A stretch of 47,724 nt of DNA from Myxococcaceae bacterium (GTDB taxonomy: Bacteria; Myxococcota; Myxococcia; Myxococcales; Myxococcaceae): the NCBI GenBank assembly GCA_020247085.1, contig JADCJJ010000415.1:1-47724 (forward strand), read 5' to 3'. The notes under the pieces were generated by a model. The model saw only the letters and a program-made list of their open reading frames with translations. It was not told the origin of the DNA and searched no databases. A program made the translations under genes and the position numbers. This document shows, piece after piece, positions 8,641-17,281 of the stretch (its first letter is position 1; each line of letters opens with the position of its first letter).

Positions 8641-10224
8641 ATGGCCCGTGTCCTCGGCCTCGACCTCGGGAGCCACGCGGTGAAGGCCGTGCTGCTCGAG
8701 ACGACCCTGCGCGGCTTTCAGGTGAAGTCGTACGCGACGGCGCCAGTCCCCGCCGAGGGCGAGAAGAAGGCCCGCCTCGAGGCGGCGCTGGCGCAGCTGT
8801 CGGCCCAGGGCCCCCTCACCGCCGACGCCGTCGTCGTCGCGGTGCCCGGCGTCTCCATGGCGACGCACTCGCTCGCCCTGCCCTTCTCCGAGCCGAAGAA
8901 GGTCGAGGCGGCGTTGGCCGGCGAGGTGGCCGACCAGCTGCCCTTCGAGCTCGACGAGGCCGTCTACGACTACCAGGCGACCGAGACGAAGCTGGGCGAG
9001 CTGAAGGGCGCGCAGGTGCTGGTGGGTGTGCTGAAGAAGCTCGAGCTGGCGGGGCTGCTCGAGCAGCTGCGCGCGGCGAAGCTCGAGCCGCGCGTGGTGA
9101 CGCACCCCGGCCTCGTCTACCAGGGCGTGCTCGCCGCCTTGCCCGCCTCCGAGGCCGACGAGGCGGTGGCCGTCGTCGACCTCGGCCACGAGCGGTGCTC
9201 CCTCGCCATCGGCAAGCCCGGGGGCACGGTGGACTTCGCGCGCACCTTCATCGGCGGGGGCCTCGCCCTGTCGAAGGCCCTGGCCACCGAGTTCCAGATT
9301 CCACTCGCCGAGGCGCAGTCGTGGAAAGAGGCGCACGGGGCCGTGGGCGCCGAGGTGGTGGGCCCCGACGCCGAGCGCGCCGCGGGCGCCTTCATGCGGG
9401 CGCTCCAGCCCGTCGTGCGGGAGCTGCGGGCGAGCCTCAAGTCGTACGCCGCGAAGATGCGCAGGCCGGTGACGCGGCTGCTCCTCTGCGGCGGCTCGGC
9501 GAAGCTGCTGGGCCTGCCCGGCCAGCTCGAGCGCGACCTCTCGCTCCCCGCCTCGCTCGTCACCCTGCCCCCGGACGCCCAGGGCGCGCTCGGCCTCTCG
9601 GCGGGCCCCGAGGCGGTGCAGGCCTGGGCGCTGGCGCTGCGCGGCCAGGCCACCGGCGCGAAGGCGCCCCGCTTCAACCTGCGCCGCGGCGAGTTCGCCT
9701 TCAAGAGTGACCTCGACTTCGCGCGGGACAAGGTGGGCCAGCTCGCGGCCTTCGCGGCGGTGCTCCTCGTGCTGCTCGTCGCCTCGGGCGTCGCCCGCAA
9801 CGCGGTGCTCGAGCGGCGCGAGAAGCAGATCGACCAGCTGCTGTGCGACACCACCACCCGCATCCTCGGGAAGTGCGAGCGGAACTACGACATCGCCATC
9901 AACCTGCTCGAGGGCAAGGAGAGCCCCGCCGCCGGCGTGCCGAAGCGGTCGGCGGTGACGCTGCTCGCCGAGGTGGCCCAGCGCATTCCACCCGACTCGC
10001 CGGTCGTCATCGACCGCGTCACCCTCGACCTCGACCGCATCGAGCTCGCCTGCAGCGCCCCCAGCGTGAAGCAGATGGAGGACATGATCACCGCCCTCAA
10101 GTCGTACAAGTGCTTCAAGGAGATCAGCGAGGGCAAGGTCGAGAAGACGAAGGACGGAGCGAAGGTGTCGTTCCGCCTGGACGTGAAGGTCGAGTGCCCC
10201 GCCGAGGGCGAGGGGCAGGGGTGA
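8641..10224 (+). CDS. gspL: Type II secretion inner-membrane protein GspL (PilM-like N-domain)
   Basis: This is a bitopic protein that links the ATPase to the periplasmic side. Residues 1 to about 340 form an actin-like fold closely resembling PilM, with the nucleotide-binding pattern LGLDLGSHAVKAVLLE at the start, VVDLGHERCSLAIG in the middle and LLLCGGSAKLLGLPG late. One membrane helix follows at about 364-384. The rest is a periplasmic PilN-like domain containing LAEVAQRIPPDSPVVIDRV. The position before gspM supports GspL. Its retained actin-like motifs make it look like a PilM-PilN fusion. Confidence 0.9.
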   Translation: MARVLGLDLGSHAVKAVLLETTLRGFQVKSYATAPVPAEGEKKARLEAALAQLSAQGPLTADAVVVAVPGVSMATHSLALPFSEPKKVEAALAGEVADQLPFELDEAVYDYQATETKLGELKGAQVLVGVLKKLELAGLLEQLRAAKLEPRVVTHPGLVYQGVLAALPASEADEAVAVVDLGHERCSLAIGKPGGTVDFARTFIGGGLALSKALATEFQIPLAEAQSWKEAHGAVGAEVVGPDAERAAGAFMRALQPVVRELRASLKSYAAKMRRPVTRLLLCGGSAKLLGLPGQLERDLSLPASLVTLPPDAQGALGLSAGPEAVQAWALALRGQATGAKAPRFNLRRGEFAFKSDLDFARDKVGQLAAFAAVLLVLLVASGVARNAVLERREKQIDQLLCDTTTRILGKCERNYDIAINLLEGKESPAAGVPKRSAVTLLAEVAQRIPPDSPVVIDRVTLDLDRIELACSAPSVKQMEDMITALKSYKCFKEISEGKVEKTKDGAKVSFRLDVKVECPAEGEGQG

Positions 10225-10230
10225 TTCGCC

Positions 10231-10779
10231 ATGGCTGACCTCTCGACCACGCTGCAGTCGTCGCTGGCCACCCTGTCATCGCGCGAGCGCCGCATGGTGA
10301 TGGCCGCCGGCGTCGCGGTGCTCGTCTTCGTCGTCTTCATGGTGACGTTCAGCTTCTCGAAGAAGGCGACGAAGATTCGCACCACCACTGAGACGAAGAT
10401 CGGCCAGCTCTCACGCGTGCAGGAGCTCGCGGCCAGCTACAACCAGTCCCGCGCCCAGCGAGACATGGCCGAGCGACAGCTCGCGGCCTCGAACGTGCGC
10501 CTGTCGTCGTTCCTCGAGGACATCGCCAAGCAGAAGGGCGTCGAGCTGCCGACCATCAACCCGAAGGCCGACGTGCCGCTCGAGGGCACGAAGATCGTCG
10601 AGAGCTCGGTCGAGGTGACGCTGACCGACGTGAAGCTGAACCGGCTGCTCGAGTTCCTGCAGGCCGTCGAGGGCGGGCCTGGCGTGGTGAAGGTGAAGTA
10701 CCTGCGGCTCGAGCCGCGTCCCTCGACCGAGTCCATCACCGCGTGGCTGCAGGTGGCCACCTACCACCTGAAGAACTGA
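10231..10779 (+). CDS. gspM: Type II secretion inner-membrane protein GspM
   Basis: This is a small bitopic partner of GspL. The 182 residues have a short cytoplasmic start (SSLATLSSRERRMVMAAG), one membrane helix (about 24-44), a coiled segment and a C-terminal ferredoxin-like domain ending in LRLEPRPSTESITAWLQVAT. The ERxR motif followed by the helix is typical of GspM. A GGGG-rich ribosome site lies in the gspL-gspM gap, and gspN starts 4 bases downstream. Confidence 0.9.
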   Translation: MADLSTTLQSSLATLSSRERRMVMAAGVAVLVFVVFMVTFSFSKKATKIRTTTETKIGQLSRVQELAASYNQSRAQRDMAERQLAASNVRLSSFLEDIAKQKGVELPTINPKADVPLEGTKIVESSVEVTLTDVKLNRLLEFLQAVEGGPGVVKVKYLRLEPRPSTESITAWLQVATYHLKN

Positions 10780-10783
10780 CGCC

Positions 10784-11710
10784 ATGGCCGCCTCGTCGAA
10801 GCTGAAGGTCGTTCGCAGGGTGTTCGCCTACGCGGGCTTCTTCGTCGTCGCTCTCGTGGCGGCGTTCTTCCTCACCTTCCCCTACGACGCGCTGAAGGCG
10901 CGCGTTCGCCTCGAGGCCGACCGGGCGGGCTTCTTCGCGCGCATCGCCTCGCTGGGGCCGGGGTTCTTCTCGGTGCGCGCGCGGGGGGTCGAGCTGAGCA
11001 AGAAGGCCGAGAGCGACCCGCCACCCGAGCCCCTCCAGTTCGACGCCATCTCGGTCGGGCCGACGCTGGTGCCCCCGGGCCTCGGCGTCACGGTGAAGGT
11101 CTTCGGTGGCACCATCGCGGTGCGCGCGTCGGGCCTGTCGACGATTCGGGTTCGCGTCGACGCCGAGGACCTCGACCTGTCGAAGTCGAACCTGAAGGGC
11201 TTCTCGGGCATCGACTTCGCGGGCACCGTCGAAGCGCACGTCGACCTGTCGCTCCCGCGCGTGGCGGTGGGGGCCGAGCCGGCGCAGCCCGACCTCGGCC
11301 AGGCCAGCGGCACCATCGCCCTCGAGGCGAAGCAGCTGGCCATCAACGGCGGCTCGCTGTCGATGGTGATTCCCCAGTTCGGCCCCGAGCCGACGCCGCT
11401 CGACCTGCCGAAGATCGTCTTCGGCGACGTGACGGGGAAGCTGAAGTTCGAGAAGGGCGCCGGCACCATCGAGAAGTTCGAGGCGAAGTCGCCGGACCTC
11501 GAGCTGCAGGCGACGGGGACGGTGAAGCTGGCGAAGCGGCTCGAGTACTCCGAGCCCGGCGTCGAGGTGCGCTTCAAGCCCGACCCCGAGTTCCAGAAGC
11601 GCCTGGGCCTCATCGGCAGCGCGCTGTCGATGGTGGGCCCCGACCCGAAGGACCCCGCCTGGCGTATGGGCCGGCTGACGGGCTACCTCGGGCGCCCGAA
11701 CTTCCGCTGA
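10784..11710 (+). CDS. gspN: Type II secretion protein GspN
   Basis: The 308 residues have an N-terminal membrane anchor (about 15-36, FAYAGFFVVALVAAFFLTF) followed by a beta-rich periplasmic domain. The anchor-proximal FPYDALKARVRLEADRAG, VRARGVELS and the later FGDVTGKLKFEKGAGTIEKF repeats fit the GspN family seen at the end of deltaproteobacterial T2SS operons, which is related to AsmA-like proteins. Its precise role is unclear. It is the last recognisable T2SS gene here. Confidence 0.85.
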   Translation: MAASSKLKVVRRVFAYAGFFVVALVAAFFLTFPYDALKARVRLEADRAGFFARIASLGPGFFSVRARGVELSKKAESDPPPEPLQFDAISVGPTLVPPGLGVTVKVFGGTIAVRASGLSTIRVRVDAEDLDLSKSNLKGFSGIDFAGTVEAHVDLSLPRVAVGAEPAQPDLGQASGTIALEAKQLAINGGSLSMVIPQFGPEPTPLDLPKIVFGDVTGKLKFEKGAGTIEKFEAKSPDLELQATGTVKLAKRLEYSEPGVEVRFKPDPEFQKRLGLIGSALSMVGPDPKDPAWRMGRLTGYLGRPNFR

Positions 11711-11717
11711 CGGCGCC

Positions 11718-12656
11718 GTGGCGAGCCGCCGGCGCGCGAAGGGGCCCCCGGCCTCGATGACCTCGGAGCGCGCGCGCTTCGGCTGGTGGCTGCGCCACGC
11801 CGAGGCGGGAGACGGCACGGCGATGCTCGAGGTGGCGACGCGCCTCGAGCGCGGGGCCGGCGCGCCGGCCGACGCCCGGGCCGCGCTCGGGTGGTACCGC
11901 CGCGCGGTGCACGCCGGCGTCGCCCTCGCGCCGGCCCTGGTGGGCGAGACGGTGTTCGAGGCCGACCCCATCGCCGGCATCACCTGGCTCATGCTGGGCT
12001 TCGAGCGCGCGCCCGACGGGGACGAGGCCAACGCCACCATCGCCACCAGCCTCTCGATGCACGAGCCGCGGCTGTCGGACGCGGCGGTGCAGGCGGCGCA
12101 GGTGTGGGCGGACGCCTGCCGGGAGCGCGCACAGTGGCCCGACGAGGTGCCCGCGCCCCACTACGTCACCGCGCCCTTCCGCCCGCGGCCGCCGCCACCG
12201 CCGCTGTCGGCGCGCACCCCGCGCCATTCGCCGCACCTCACCCGTCCCCTGGCGTTCGGGCCGTGGCGCATCGCCCTGCCGCCCGCCGCGGCCGTCGAGA
12301 CGCTCCGCGTCGGCCAGCACGTCAAGGCCTCGTGGGGAGGTGCCTTCGCGGTACACCTGGTGTGGACGACGCTGGCGCCGGGCCTCGACGTCGAGGGCTA
12401 CGTGCTGCGCAGCAACGCCTCGACGCAGCGGCTGTGGCGCCCCGAGGCCGCGCCCTCCCGCTTCCTGCTCTACGGCGTCGACACCACCTCGTGCGTCTTC
12501 ACGGGCCTCGGCCCGTCATCGGGCCAGCGGGCGCTCAAGCGCTTCGCGGCCCGCGAAGCGCACCTGGCCGTCGTCACCGCCGTCGCGCCGGACGCACTGT
12601 TCGAAGCGAAGCGCGAGCTGCTCGAGGCCCTCGTCGACAGCCTTCGCCCCGGCTGA
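11718..12656 (+). CDS. Protein of unknown function with Sel1/TPR-like N-terminus
   Basis: The 312 residues show at about 20-110 a helical repeat pattern like Sel1/TPR repeats (HAEAGDGTAMLEVATRLERG, ADARAALGWYRRAVHAG). A Pro-rich linker follows (about 155-170, FRPRPPPPPLS). The C-terminal domain (about 185-305) includes VDTTSCVFTGLGPSSGQRAL and has no family I recognise. No signal peptide is seen. GTG 11718 is 8 bases after gspN; ATG 11757 (MTSERARFGWW) is an equally possible start and would remove an Arg-rich leader. It lies in the T2SS transcription unit but need not be part of the machine. Confidence 0.7.
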   Translation: MASRRRAKGPPASMTSERARFGWWLRHAEAGDGTAMLEVATRLERGAGAPADARAALGWYRRAVHAGVALAPALVGETVFEADPIAGITWLMLGFERAPDGDEANATIATSLSMHEPRLSDAAVQAAQVWADACRERAQWPDEVPAPHYVTAPFRPRPPPPPLSARTPRHSPHLTRPLAFGPWRIALPPAAAVETLRVGQHVKASWGGAFAVHLVWTTLAPGLDVEGYVLRSNASTQRLWRPEAAPSRFLLYGVDTTSCVFTGLGPSSGQRALKRFAAREAHLAVVTAVAPDALFEAKRELLEALVDSLRPG

Positions 12657-12692: not shown

Positions 12693-14339
12693 TCAGAAGG
12701 CGACGAAGAGGCCGGCGGACAGCGCCGCGAAGCCGTAGGGGCGCAGCGTCACCGTCGCCGCGGCGTCCTCCTGGAATGGCACCAGCAACACCGGGAACTC
12801 GCCCTCGGCGTGGAGCCACACCGGGCCGGCGAGGCGAAGGCGGAGCGAGAGGCGGGGGGCGGCGACGACGAGGCCGGTGGGCTGGAGCGCGCCGCTCGTC
12901 GGCTGCGCAGCGAGGAGCATGCCGCCGCCCAGCTCGAGGCCGAGGCCGAGGTGCAGGCGCCACCACTCGACGGCGACGCGGTACCCCACGCGCAGCTGCA
13001 GCCCGTACTCGTTCCGGCGCGTCGCCTCGGTCGTCGCCTCACCGACGCCCTGCAGCGTCAGCTCGCCGAGCACGCGGGCCCGACCCAGGCGGGGGCGCCC
13101 GAAGAGGTTGAAGCTGCCGAAGGACGACTGGAGAGGCTCCACGCCGACGCGCAGCTGGTACTTGAGGCCGCTCGTGTCGTTGGGTGCCCACTCGGTGACC
13201 CGGCCGGTCGCGCCGAAGGCCAGCGACAACCCGATGGGCGCGGTGTCTTCCTTCTCGTCCATCTGCTGCGACACCTCGACGGCGCCGCCCTTGGCCGCGA
13301 CGACCACCGCCGACGTGACGGGCGTCAGCTCGCCCCAGGCGACGGCGCGGCGCTGGCCCTCGGCGAGCTTGAGGCGCGCGGCGAAGCCCTGGCCGCCCTT
13401 GAAGAGCCGCAGCGAGTACTCGCCGGGCGCCACCGCGAACTCCCGGGCCGCGCCGGCCGGCGCCTCGACGACGACGTGGTCCCTCAGGACGTCGGTCACC
13501 AGCGCGCGGTCGGCGCCCTCGGGCAGCACCAGCACCGACGAGGGCTTGAGCAGCGAGGCCAGCACCAGCTCGCCCTGGCCCGACAGCTTGAAGTCGTACG
13601 AGGGGTGCTGGACGCCGACGGAGAGGGCCGCCGTGGCGCTGACGGTGCGATCGTACGCGTAGCGGTAGGCCTCGGCGAGCGTCACCAGCCGGTCGCCCGA
13701 GGTGTCGGCGGCGCCGCGCAGCCCCGAGATGAGGTTGTGCGTGAAATAGCTGCCCATCACCTCGTTCGACTCGAGCGCGGCCTCGTCGGCGGCGCTCGAG
13801 GTGATGAAGGCCTCGCCGGTCTGCTGGAGCGTGTCGGCCAGCTTGATGACGAAGGCCTCGGCCGGCCGGCCGCCCTTCTCGCGAATGCCCGCGCCCGACT
13901 TGCACGCGTCGACGATGGAGACGCGCACGTCGGCCCCCGCGCCCGAGAGCAGGGCCTTCAGGCGCGCGTACGGCAGCCGCTCGAGGCCGAGCTCCATCGC
14001 CTCACCGTCGGAGTGGCCCGAGAAGTAGAACACCAGCACGGTGCGCACGTCGGGAGAGCGCTTGAACATCGCGATGCGCTCCTTCGCGTCGGTGATGGCG
14101 CGCTCGACGTCGGCAGCCCGCCGCCCCTGAAGCAGCAGGATGTCGTCGGGCGCCACCTCGCCGAGCTCGACCAGCACGCGGGCCATCTTCCCCGCGTCGG
14201 ACTCGGCGAAGCGCAACGGCGGCATCGACGGCCCGCCGGCGTTGTTGCCGACGACGATGGCGACGCGCCGGGTCTCGGCGACGGAAATCGCCGGGCCGAG
14301 GCAGAGCCCCAGGACGAGGGCGAGGCGGCCGGCGCTCAC
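12693..14339 (-). CDS. Exported caspase-like (peptidase C14 family) protein
   Basis: The GTG start overlaps the stop of the anti-sigma gene and gives 548 aa. A clear signal peptide (RLALVLGLCLGPAISVA, cut near ETRR) is followed by a caspase fold at about 24-260. It begins RRVAIVVGNN and has the catalytic His109 in VLVFYFSGHSDGEA and Cys146 in VSIVDACKSGA, the p20-type dyad. A short beta domain follows (about 290-370). The C-terminal 150 residues are rich in alternating beta strands, like an outer-membrane or periplasmic beta sheet (GLQLRVGYRVAVEWWRLHLG). Such proteases are common in myxobacteria. Export and the sigma/anti-sigma operon are the notable parts. A longer open frame continues upstream but only as antisense of the sigma operon. 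Confidence 0.88.
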   Translation of the reverse strand: MSAGRLALVLGLCLGPAISVAETRRVAIVVGNNAGGPSMPPLRFAESDAGKMARVLVELGEVAPDDILLLQGRRAADVERAITDAKERIAMFKRSPDVRTVLVFYFSGHSDGEAMELGLERLPYARLKALLSGAGADVRVSIVDACKSGAGIREKGGRPAEAFVIKLADTLQQTGEAFITSSAADEAALESNEVMGSYFTHNLISGLRGAADTSGDRLVTLAEAYRYAYDRTVSATAALSVGVQHPSYDFKLSGQGELVLASLLKPSSVLVLPEGADRALVTDVLRDHVVVEAPAGAAREFAVAPGEYSLRLFKGGQGFAARLKLAEGQRRAVAWGELTPVTSAVVVAAKGGAVEVSQQMDEKEDTAPIGLSLAFGATGRVTEWAPNDTSGLKYQLRVGVEPLQSSFGSFNLFGRPRLGRARVLGELTLQGVGEATTEATRRNEYGLQLRVGYRVAVEWWRLHLGLGLELGGGMLLAAQPTSGALQPTGLVVAAPRLSLRLRLAGPVWLHAEGEFPVLLVPFQEDAAATVTLRPYGFAALSAGLFVAF

Positions 14340-15097
14340 GGCGCGCCCTTGACGAAGCGACGCGTCAACACCGTCGCCCCCTCGACCTTCGGCGCCTCGG
14401 GGTTGGCCCGCACCGCCGCCTCGAGGGCGGCCGCCGTCACCGGGGCATGCGACAGCACGACGAAGACCCGCTCGTCGCCCATCGTCTCGTCGAGCTCGAT
14501 GGTGCTGGCGAGCTCGACACGGCTGGCCGCGGGGGCGGCCTCGGACTGGGTGGCGCCGAAGGGGTGGAACACCGTGAAGCCCTGCGCCCCGTCGAGCGAG
14601 GCGACGAGCACGAACTTCGCGCTGGCGGGCTCGACGACGAAGCGCACCTTGTCCTTCGGGTGCAACGTCGCGCCGTCCTTCACCGGGAAGGGCGCCGCCC
14701 CCCCGCGCTGGGCGACGAGCTCGAACGCCGCCGCCCCCTTGATGCCGACATACTCGTCGTCTTCCGTCTGCGTCCCCGGGCCGGCGGCGAAGGTGAGCGC
14801 GAGCGCCGCGGCGGTGGCCAGCCCCAGGGCCGGGAGCACGAGCCGTAGCCGCAGCCGCTCCAGCACTCCACCCCTTGAGCCCTCGAGGCGGGCCTGCACC
14901 TTCGGGAGGGTGCGCGGGAAGACGTACTGCTTGAACTTCTGGCTGTCTTCGTTGAGCTCCGCCCAGCGCTGCTGGCACACGGCGCACGTCTCGAGGTGGC
15001 CTCGAGCGTCGCGCTCGTCCGTCGTCGAAAGCGCCGACAGGAGCAGCAGGTCGATGGCCTCGGCCGACAGGTGGCCGCGGGCGTTGGTGACGGTCAT
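14336..15097 (-). CDS. Zinc-finger membrane anti-sigma factor, candidate
   Basis: The 253 residues begin with a zinc-finger anti-sigma type segment, H34-x3-C38-x2-C41 (HLETCAVC), preceded by LSAEAIDLLLLSALS. A membrane helix lies at about 83-107. A periplasmic domain of about 145 residues follows, including DGATLHPKDKVRFVVEP and LDGAQGFTVFHPFG; it resembles the DUF4384-like sensory domains seen with caspases. The gene starts within the stop of the upstream sigma factor (ATGA) and its stop overlaps the caspase start. It is therefore likely the membrane-bound partner that holds the sigma factor inactive until a periplasmic signal. Confidence 0.8.
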   Translation of the reverse strand: MTVTNARGHLSAEAIDLLLLSALSTTDERDARGHLETCAVCQQRWAELNEDSQKFKQYVFPRTLPKVQARLEGSRGGVLERLRLRLVLPALGLATAAALALTFAAGPGTQTEDDEYVGIKGAAAFELVAQRGGAAPFPVKDGATLHPKDKVRFVVEPASAKFVLVASLDGAQGFTVFHPFGATQSEAAPAASRVELASTIELDETMGDERVFVVLSHAPVTAAALEAAVRANPEAPKVEGATVLTRRFVKGAP

Positions 15098-15609
15098 GGC
15101 GTACCCCCCTCGCGAGAGAGGAACTTGCGGCTGCGCTCCTGGAACTCCTGGAGCCGGTTGATGACGGTTCTGCGCGAGATGTCCAGCGCGCGCGCGACCT
15201 GATCCTGGTCGAGCCCGTCGACGTAGTAGAGGACCACCGTGTCGCGGAGCTTCTCGGGCGTGCGCGCGATGAGCTGCAGCGCCAGGGCGCGGTCGTGCAG
15301 CTTCGGCTCGAGCAGCTCACCCTCGCCTTCGGGGAGCGCCTCGGGTGCCGTGGGCTCGGCCTGGCGGCCGCGGTCGCGGAGCTGGTTGAGGCAGTAGTTG
15401 GTCGAGATGCGGTAGACCCACGCCAGGGCCGCCGCGTCGTCGGGAGCTGCCTCGATGTGACGCATGACGCGCACGAAGACCTCCTGCGTAGCGTCCTCTG
15501 CCAGCCCGTCGTCCCTCAACAGACGGCGGCACCGCGAGAAGATCGCCGGCCCGAACTTCCGGTACAGGTCATCGACCCGTCCGTATGAATCGACCCCGCG
15601 TGGCGACAC
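15094..15609 (-). CDS. ECF-type RNA polymerase sigma factor
   Basis: The protein is 171 aa with sigma region 2 (VDDLYRKFGPAIFSRCRRLL, EDATQEVFVRVMRHI, AWVYRISTNYCLNQLRDR) and region 4 (LRDTVVLYYVDGLDQDQVARAL, DISRRTVINRLQEF). I chose GTG 15609 because AGGAAGG lies 9 bases before it; a TTG at 15618 is too close to that site. The stop overlaps the anti-sigma start. It probably directs its own operon, including the caspase gene, although no matching -35/-10 could be confirmed upstream. Confidence 0.9.
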   Translation of the reverse strand: MSPRGVDSYGRVDDLYRKFGPAIFSRCRRLLRDDGLAEDATQEVFVRVMRHIEAAPDDAAALAWVYRISTNYCLNQLRDRGRQAEPTAPEALPEGEGELLEPKLHDRALALQLIARTPEKLRDTVVLYYVDGLDQDQVARALDISRRTVINRLQEFQERSRKFLSREGGTP

Positions 15610-15931
15610 CGTGTGCAACCTTCCTGAAAGAATCTTCTCCCGGTCGACCGCGCCGCCCGAACGACCCCCGCTTCACGCGCTGCGCGGCTGACCGCCAGGC
15701 GCCGTCCGCCCGAGTGCGCCCGGCCCGGCCAGGCACCGGAAACTACTCGATTTCCGCGCGCGCCTCACCTCGATTCCGCAGGCACCGGCAGCGTGGGGAG
15801 GGCCCCGGGCGCGTGCACGGCGGACCCTTCCCGCGGGGCGCGGGGCGGGTTGGTCAACTGGCACGGGAATGTGGGGCGGTGCGAAGGCGGTCGATTGAGC
15901 CCGCCGGGCAAACCTGCTCAAACGCCGGGCC
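15610..15931. other. Divergent intergenic region, ECF sigma / purF
   Basis: About 320 bases without a credible gene. It must hold promoters for both the sigma operon (leftward) and purF (rightward). A perfect 6-bp hairpin, CGGAAA at 15737-15742 with TTTCCG at 15751-15756, sits in its middle. The GGAAA half on either strand resembles an ECF -35 core, but no convincing -10 was found. No riboswitch fold was recognised. Confidence 0.4.
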
Positions 15932-17281
15932 ATGTGCGGCGTCTTCGGCATCTACGGGCATGAGGAAGCGGCGAACCTGACGTACCTGGGCCTTCACGCG
16001 CTCCAGCACCGGGGGCAGGAGTCGGGCGGCATCGTCACCAGCGACGGCCAGCGGCTGCGCAGCCACCGCAGCATGGGGCTGGTGGCCGACACGTTCACCC
16101 AGCCGGTGCTGGAACAGTTGCCGGGCACGCTGGCGATCGGCCACGTGCGGTACTCGACGGCCGGCGGGAGCCACCTGAAGAACGCCCAGCCGCTGCAGGT
16201 GTCGTTCGTCGGCGGCCAGCTCGCGGTGGCGCACAACGGCAACTTCGTCGACGCCGAGGCGACCCGCCGGGGGCTCGAGGCCGACGGCGCCATCTTTCAG
16301 TCCGACTCGGACACCGAGAACATCATTCACCACATCGCGCGCTCGAAGGCCCCGACGCTCGAGGCGAAGGTCATCGAGGCGCTGCGGCGGACGAGCGGCG
16401 CGTTCTCGGTGCTGTTCCTCTCGGACACGCAGCTGATCGGCGCGAGAGACCCCATCGGCTTCCGGCCACTGGTGCTCGGTCGCCTGAAGGAGGCCTACGT
16501 GCTGGCGAGCGAGACGCCGGCGCTCGACCTCATCGAGGCCGAGTTCATTCGCGAGATCGAGCCCGGCGAGCTGGTGGTCATCGACGCGAACGGGCTGCGC
16601 TCGTCGTTCCCGTTCGAGAAGGCGCCCCCGGGGCGCTGCGTGTTCGAGCTCGTCTACTTCGCGCGGCCGGACTCGCAGCTGTTCGGCACGTCAGTGTTCC
16701 AGGTGCGCAAGAAGCTGGGCGCCCAGCTGGCCTCGGAGCAGCCCGTCGAAGCCGACGTCGTCATCGCGGTGCCCGACTCGGGCGTGCCGGCGGCCATCGG
16801 GTACGCCGAGGCCGCGAAGCTCCCGTACGACGTGGGCCTCATTCGCAGCCACTACGTCGGGCGCACCTTCATCGAGCCGCAGCAGTCGATTCGGCACTTC
16901 GGCGTCAAGCTGAAGCTGGCGCCGGTGCGCTCGACGCTCGAGGGCAAGCGGGTGGTGGTGGTCGACGACTCCATCGTGCGCGGCACCACGTCGCGGAAGA
17001 TCGTCAAGATGCTGAAGGACGCGGGGGCCCGCGAGGTGCACCTGCGCATCTCGAGCCCCCCGACGTCGTGGCCCTGCTACTACGGCATCGACACGCCGAG
17101 CCGGAAGGAGCTCATCGCCGCCTCGCACACCGTCGACGAGATCGCCCGCTACGTGACGGCCGACTCGCTGGCCTACCTCAGCGTGCAAGGGCTGGTGACG
17201 GCTGCTGGTGACGCCTCGGGGCGCTCGTTCTGCGCCGCGTGCTTCACCGGCAAGTACCCGACGCCGCTCGTCACGGCCTGA
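15932..17281 (+). CDS. purF: Amidophosphoribosyltransferase (glutamine PRPP amidotransferase)
   Basis: It catalyses the first committed step of purine synthesis, PRPP plus glutamine to phosphoribosylamine. It opens [20 protein letters not shown], so Cys2 is the N-terminal nucleophile of the glutaminase domain after Met removal. HRGQESGG and NGNF follow. The PRPP loop is [14 protein letters not shown] (341-354). Cys236, Cys382, Cys434 and Cys437 (ending [12 protein letters not shown]) match the iron-sulfur ligands of the Bacillus-type enzyme. That type usually has a cleaved propeptide, which is absent here: the frame upstream reaches a TGA at 15896 with no start codon. The 449-residue length is normal for the type. 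Confidence 0.97.

Follow-up and report, generated by a model that had tools for sequence, protein, structure and literature searches.

The window, a stretch of 47,724 nucleotides from a Myxococcaceae bacterium (contig JADCJJ010000415.1 of assembly GCA_020247085.1), carries on its minus strand one operon of three genes encoding an extracytoplasmic function (ECF) sigma factor, a membrane anti-sigma factor and an exported caspase (Table 1). Both gene joints overlap by 4 bases, and the coordinates of the open reading frames bear out the three-gene arrangement described in an earlier reading of this DNA from its letters alone (the sequence-only reading), which had proposed that the protease cuts the anti-sigma factor. 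Comparison of the operon with its relatives, together with predicted structures of its products, presents a model where the caspase would be moored in the outer membrane, free itself and act on its own anti-sigma factor.

Table 1. Positions of the operon's genes and of the features predicted within them
Feature	Positions	Strand	Basis or remark
ECF sigma factor (sigma2 + sigma4)	15094..15609	-	start candidates GTG 15609, TTG 15618, or a later non-canonical start
Membrane anti-sigma factor, 253 amino acids	14336..15097	-	ATG start
Exported caspase, 548 amino acids	12693..14339	-	GTG start; signal peptide, C14 domain, beta-sandwich, linker, predicted outer-membrane barrel
Signal peptide, caspase residues 1-21	14277..14339	-	sequence and rule-based check of homologues
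Caspase catalytic domain, residues 22-245	13605..14276	-	H109, D144, C146, D48 invariant
K155-G156, predicted caspase self-processing site (p20/p10 boundary)	13872..13877	-	KG 58/58 and position in model
Beta-sandwich domain, caspase residues 247-341	13317..13601	-	structure model
K350-G351, predicted release site in disordered linker before the barrel	13287..13292	-	K 53, R 5, G 58 of 58; pLDDT <50 at 344-365
Predicted eight-strand outer-membrane beta-barrel, caspase residues 370-547, C-terminal Phe	12699..13232	-	structure model and Foldseek
Anti-sigma H34-x3-C38-x2-C41 zinc-binding (ZAS) motif	14975..14998	-	H/C kept in 79-80% of 70 paralogues
Predicted site-1 cleavage site K120/G121 of the anti-sigma factor	14735..14740	-	K 70/70, G 69/70
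Conserved promoter-like element TTGCAC-N15-GGGGTC, upstream of or overlapping the sigma start	15592..15618	-	comparison across relatives

The sigma protein exceeds the Pfam cut-offs for Sigma70_r2 (56.1 bits) and Sigma70_r4_2 (32.2 bits) and the NCBIfam cut-off for TIGR02937 (67.2 versus 42.9), and its sigma2 and sigma4 regions without sigma3 identify it as an ECF type. The model of its partner (mean predicted local distance difference test score, pLDDT, 89.4) shows a helical anti-sigma domain (residues 12-75), a transmembrane helix (78-104), a linker predicted to be disordered (106-115, pLDDT below 50) and a compact Ig-like beta domain (121-253). The zinc-binding motif lies intact inside the N-terminal helical domain; zf-HC2 scores below the Pfam gathering cut-off (12.9 versus 22.2 bits), and some paralogues lack the motif. 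This predicted single-pass layout with a periplasmic domain matches that of ECF systems controlled by regulated intramembrane proteolysis and agrees with the membrane anti-sigma factor of the sequence-only reading. The protein would bind and inhibit its cognate sigma factor, with whose gene it is co-inherited. Its periplasmic domain has no Foldseek match in the PDB at E<=0.001, and the best VIA alignment (Z 8.6) is to a generic Ig-like fold; without a strong PDB relative, no ligand can therefore be proposed for it.

Residues 24-214 of the third protein match Peptidase_C14 (44.7 bits against a Pfam cut-off of 21.4), and the first part of its model aligns by VIA with AtMC4, metacaspase 4 (Z 22.0, root-mean-square deviation 2.6, 208 residues aligned), and with caspase-7 (Z 21.6, root-mean-square deviation 2.4, 199 aligned). 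The His109/Cys146 dyad is intact, as the sequence-only reading had it, and both residues, along with D144 and D48, are invariant in a set of 58 divergent paralogues that reaches down to 28% identity; an inactive pseudo-caspase is rejected on this ground. The protein begins with the predicted signal peptide MSAGRLALVLGLCLGPAISVA, with the cut predicted before ET, and 95 of 101 caspase homologues pass a crude signal-peptide rule. The signal peptide marks the caspase as exported and leads us to reject a cytoplasmic location, which the sequence-only reading had named as one of two findings that would overturn its proposal.

The caspase model, built with AlphaFold2 from a 58-row alignment (mean pLDDT 87.6), follows the signal peptide with the caspase domain, a beta-sandwich, a linker with a disordered stretch at 344-365, eight long strands and a terminal Phe. 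Foldseek also matches it to the outer-membrane barrels NspA (template modelling score 0.76 on the target), OmpA, PagL and OmpX, and the prediction combines a signal peptide, an even number of strands and a C-terminal aromatic residue, as outer-membrane barrels do. A C-terminus of this kind would tether the enzyme and turn it toward the periplasm; we thus predict from the model that the outer membrane holds the anchor of the caspase, whose catalytic domain lies on the periplasmic side. The secreted caspase with a beta-rich C-terminus proposed earlier therefore holds as to export, and the beta-rich part resolves into a beta-sandwich and a barrel, while the free location gives way to a predicted anchor. 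Signal peptide, C-terminal barrel and cleavable linker also resemble the layout of an autotransporter, in which the barrel would carry the caspase out to the surface and the enzyme would then cut itself free to act on prey or neighbours. Autotransporter barrels, however, score lower than the nearest barrels, the eight-strand NspA, OmpA and PagL types, and eight strands are predicted in place of the 12-strand translocator barrel of a classical autotransporter. With an even-stranded barrel the N-terminal domain stays periplasmic unless it is translocated, a helix-anchored version of the caspase exists, and a site shared with the periplasm-facing anti-sigma factor favours the periplasm. Outward release strikes us as highly improbable.

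That shared site is a Lys-Gly motif found twice in the caspase and once in the anti-sigma factor. The first copy, K155-G156, lies nine residues past Cys146 and is Lys-Gly in every one of the 58 paralogues; the loop after the catalytic Cys is the usual place of self-processing in caspases. At the second, K350-G351 in the linker, the glycine is invariant and the preceding residue is Lys in 53 paralogues and Arg in the other 5, never anything else, amid flanking columns that are variable or gapped. The third sits in the anti-sigma factor, where K120 is kept in 70 of 70 paralogues and G121 in 69, above the zinc ligands (79-80%). Lysine makes up only 2-3% of residues. An alignment-free test, using windows at set distances from conserved anchors, recovers [KR]G in 58/58 loops, 58/58 linkers and 70/70 anti-sigma factors, and shuffled windows contain it at most 34, 32 and 42 times, respectively. 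Among 162 distinct anti-sigma factors encoded next to a caspase, 155 have KG and 159 have [KR]G; the other three read K-S, K-A and, in one misaligned case, carry ARGS upstream.

Metacaspases cut after Arg or Lys, and TbMCA2 uses Asp95 and Asp211 in its S1 pocket (PMC4357240). In the profile alignment, D48 and D144, both invariant in the family, fall at the metacaspase positions that correspond to this pair (carrying the TbMCA2 numbering over is our own reading), and the caspase is accordingly predicted to cleave after Lys or Arg. The same motif in enzyme and partner, together with acidic S1 residues, fits one protease acting at three bonds. The same evidence of recognition would arise if the anti-sigma Lys-Gly were a docking or pseudosubstrate site through which the anti-sigma factor restrains the caspase as an inhibitor, uncut, and the overlapping genes would provide stoichiometric co-expression. 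K120-G121, however, lies at the edge of the disordered membrane-proximal linker, the usual place of site-1 cleavage, and the loop and linker of the caspase bear the same motif in a manner typical of substrates. We regard inhibition by docking as very unlikely.

Natural variants of the motif, compared across loci numbered with the prefix L, appear to behave as expected of a cleavage site, with Lys/Arg swaps and with loss in two lineages that lack the caspase. In two divergent operons, L071 from the same genome and L183, Lys is replaced by Arg at all three sites (TERGG, AGRGD and TERGS in L071), and Arg takes the place of the anti-sigma Lys in L277, L269, L347 and L070. The more divergent loci L361 and L359 have an anti-sigma factor with R-G; the L361 caspase lies on the opposite strand. 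A hydrophobic helix replaces the barrel in the caspases of L069, L075 and L078, where KG still stands directly before the anchor; TPR-like repeats replace it in L091, and L140 has repeats with a barrel-like end. The anchorless orphan caspase L137 has lost the linker KG and kept that of the loop. Orphans L077 and L080, without anchor and sigma partners, have lost the loop KG and kept His and Cys; both are exported, with STH or SSH instead of SGH at the His and a different C-terminal domain. The anti-sigma factors without a caspase in L181, L344 and L345 (one lineage) and in L357 and L358 have lost KG and kept the beta domain. Six further orphan caspases (L067, in C432 of the same genome, L079, L230, L231, L233 and L256) have both KG sites and about 50-58% identity to this caspase, without adjacent sigma or anti-sigma genes, and may serve this switch as additional targets or helpers.

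These variants bear on the notion that the motifs are structural, each capping the first strand of the domain after it, and that their identity is coincidental. Every KG does stand directly before a folded beta domain or a membrane anchor. The homologues in L181, L344, L345, L357 and L358 nonetheless retain the domain without KG, the motif precedes folds as unrelated as a barrel, a helix and an Ig-like domain, and the linker position swaps only between Lys and Arg. A purely structural role thus seems a very faint prospect.

The triplet is widely conserved, as shown by a search of other genomes, a check proposed with the sequence-only reading. Caspase matches occur in 54 of 60 relatives and anti-sigma matches in 48 of 60, mostly adjacent and in several copies per genome. 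About 100 regions fetched within this bacterial order contain 101 caspase genes, of which 83 have the sigma and anti-sigma genes directly upstream, far more than chance would give. These regions were picked from caspase matches, bar one picked from an anti-sigma match, which makes 83/101 a fair but not a random sample; in a later set picked from anti-sigma matches, the caspase is also present in most. The alternative that the triplet is not conserved, in which case the earlier proposal was to fall, is rejected on these counts. Triplets occur in Myxococcus, Pyxidicoccus, and metagenome-assembled genomes (MAGs) of Archangium and Polyangiaceae, and a profile search of genome contigs with a 15-row alignment found single loci in MAGs or contigs from Fibrobacteres, Chitinispirillia and Spirochaetes. 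Over the 83 triplets, the caspase distance matrix correlates with that of the anti-sigma factor (r=0.887) and that of the sigma factor (r=0.937), and permutations reach at most 0.12. Judged from these distances, the sigma, anti-sigma and caspase genes are passed on together. Triplet contigs resembling those of Myxobacteria also appear in MAGs labelled Bifidobacterium breve and Klebsiella pneumoniae (L268, L270) and in a record labelled Comamonas sp. KCTC 72670 (L284); these records are probably misbinned, contaminated or mislabelled.

Alternatively, the caspase could be an output of the sigma factor, an envelope effector encoded beside its regulator and serving cell death, lysis, predation or debris removal, with the cutting of the anti-sigma factor left to a different protease, for instance an HtrA of the DegS type. 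The caspase gene comes last in the operon and shares its control, myxobacteria live as predators and undergo developmental lysis, and orphan caspases exist without sigma genes. A cell-death role is also suggested by Asplund-Samuelsson et al. (2012, PMC3501461). An output role leaves unexplained why the most conserved residue of the anti-sigma factor belongs to a Lys-Gly just outside the membrane that is identical to both caspase sites, and why this motif swaps Lys for Arg and is lost where the caspase is not adjacent. We consider such a role unlikely, although it is the strongest of the competing accounts.

The reading that we prefer, and hold to be probable, is a trans-envelope switch in which the caspase releases itself and serves as the site-1 protease of the anti-sigma factor encoded with it. 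It draws together the gene order, the export signal, the dyad, the predicted barrel, the three conserved Lys/Arg-Gly sites and the co-inheritance. At rest, the anti-sigma factor would hold the sigma factor at the inner membrane while the C-terminal barrel moors the caspase in the outer membrane. An envelope signal, possibly failed barrel assembly or outer-membrane damage, would trigger the caspase to cleave itself at two points, after K155 in the loop between p20 and p10 and after the linker residue K350, freeing it from the barrel. The freed enzyme would then cut the anti-sigma factor after K120, just outside the inner-membrane helix, in a site-1 cleavage. An M50-family protease acting at site 2, together with proteases of the cytosol, would complete the release of the sigma factor, which would raise expression of its own operon. 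The genome has several M50 matches (best 119.3 bits), and M50 proteins occur in all control genomes too. On balance, we lean toward the broader claim that site-1 proteases include a class not described before, in which a caspase moored in the outer membrane cuts itself free, bodily conveys the signal through the periplasm and cleaves an inner-membrane anti-sigma factor at the same Lys/Arg-Gly code, with as many as about a dozen such copies working in parallel in one genome.

Several observations weigh against this switch. The barrel is a prediction, and we infer the trigger, every cleavage and the succession of events, as well as site-2 proteolysis and autoregulation, so that the proposal of the sequence-only reading that the caspase cuts the anti-sigma factor has gained a predicted bond and site-level comparative support, from the shared Lys-Gly and its variants, rather than an observed cut. 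The KG losses in anti-sigma factors without a caspase stem from only two lineages, and the anti-sigma factors of L167, L179, L182 and L356 keep KG with no caspase adjacent; in the case of L179 and L182, the genome does encode an orphan caspase at another locus (L114 and L083). A separate, unrelated caspase in L127 also has KG after its Cys, so that the loop site may be partly generic. Finally, a distant subfamily (L349, L354, L360, L362) has A-T-C (A-T-C-H-S-G) or A-A-C in place of D-A-C at the active site and no loop KG, while the anti-sigma KG is kept wherever an anti-sigma factor is detected. This subfamily does not fit the rule of one protease specificity.

A comparison with known systems shows both the precedents and the differences. 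Sigma-70/metacaspase operons are reported in Myxococcus, Anaeromyxobacter, Haliangium, Sorangium, Ralstonia and Fibrobacter in the operon section of PMC3501461, and those of Myxococcus xanthus and its relatives very probably belong to the same operon family. That section and the legend to Figure 5 contain no anti-sigma factor, export, barrel, shared cleavage motif or mechanism; the role suggested was cell death. In type III-E CRISPR CASP (Csx29/Csx30/CASP-sigma, PMC10028731), a caspase-like protease likewise relieves the inhibition of an ECF-like sigma factor by cleaving its inhibitor. There, however, the protease is an RNA-guided TPR-CHAT protein, Csx30 is not a membrane anti-sigma factor of this kind, and there is no barrel or shared Lys-Gly site; a Pfam scan of the three operon proteins finds neither Cas7-11 nor TPR-CHAT Csx29 domains.

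The sigmaE/RseA/DegS/RseP system of E. coli shares a membrane anti-sigma factor that is cut at a periplasmic site 1 and then at site 2, with outer-membrane protein assembly as the signal (PMC8103513). There, site 1 is cut by a serine protease of the HtrA type that sits in the inner membrane and has a PDZ sensor, whereas here the cut would fall to a C14 caspase that is anchored in the outer membrane and whose gene belongs to the sigma operon itself. This operon contains the caspase and no HtrA/PDZ protease, HtrA elsewhere in the genome not having been searched for. Bacillus RsiP and RsiV also use a site-1 protease other than DegS, which is signal peptidase, not a caspase (PMC8844934, PMC5014341). 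Cell-surface signalling through a TonB-dependent transducer, a FecR-type anti-sigma factor and an ECF sigma factor likewise sends a signal from an outer-membrane barrel across the periplasm to an anti-sigma factor; here, a small eight-strand barrel bears a protease, and there is no TonB-dependent receptor. Metacaspases and orthocaspases (C14B) have in common with this caspase the C14 fold, the His/Cys dyad and the predicted Lys/Arg specificity. This caspase differs in being exported and in its beta-sandwich, predicted outer-membrane barrel and invariant Lys-Gly loop and linker sites.

No paper describing an envelope caspase as a site-1 anti-sigma protease was found in the open-access literature searched, the nearest case being type III-E CRISPR. 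The earlier remark that no described system of this exact form was known is only partly right: sigma-70/metacaspase operons (PMC3501461) and the relief of a cytoplasmic sigma inhibitor by a caspase-like protease of CRISPR (PMC10028731) were already known. New here are the predicted anchoring by a barrel, the Lys/Arg-Gly code common to enzyme and partner, the way this code varies from operon to operon, and a prediction at the level of single bonds, with the mechanism as a whole being probable. The naming of one specific bond in one specific partner makes the function directly testable. To our knowledge, little has been established about what exported caspases do in bacteria, and cell death is assumed by default. 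If the proposed switch is true, bacterial caspases would be carriers of envelope signals through a new route of anti-sigma proteolysis, with the logic of a tethered messenger protease, and their copies would be parallel sigma switches expanded in multicellular predators. Proteins of a family familiar from cell death in animals would then relay signals across the bacterial envelope.

Upstream of the sigma gene, the promoter-like element TTGCAC-N15-GGGGTC is conserved within the genus and partly beyond it. In each of 4 genomes it matches once at the sigma operon, further matches in these genomes are about as frequent as those of a reversed control, and none of the orphan caspases carries it. This distribution fits a plausibly autoregulated promoter with a narrow regulon, and the feedback loop proposed in the sequence-only reading is likewise plausible, the element being kept at the operon only. 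The element overlaps both candidate sigma start codons and a possible ribosome-binding site, which leaves the start uncertain and the promoter reading tentative. In L147, L153 and L154, the sigma gene seems to begin at an ATG downstream of the element, so that within this genus the annotated sigma start may be wrong or the codon non-canonical.

The operon stands isolated from its neighbours, with a convergent gene that ends at 12656 and a divergent gene of 449 amino acids that begins at 15932. The latter looks like an amidophosphoribosyltransferase gene. Farther off, nearby plus-strand genes at 8641-11710 of the window resemble, by eye, GspL, GspM and GspN of a type II secretion system.

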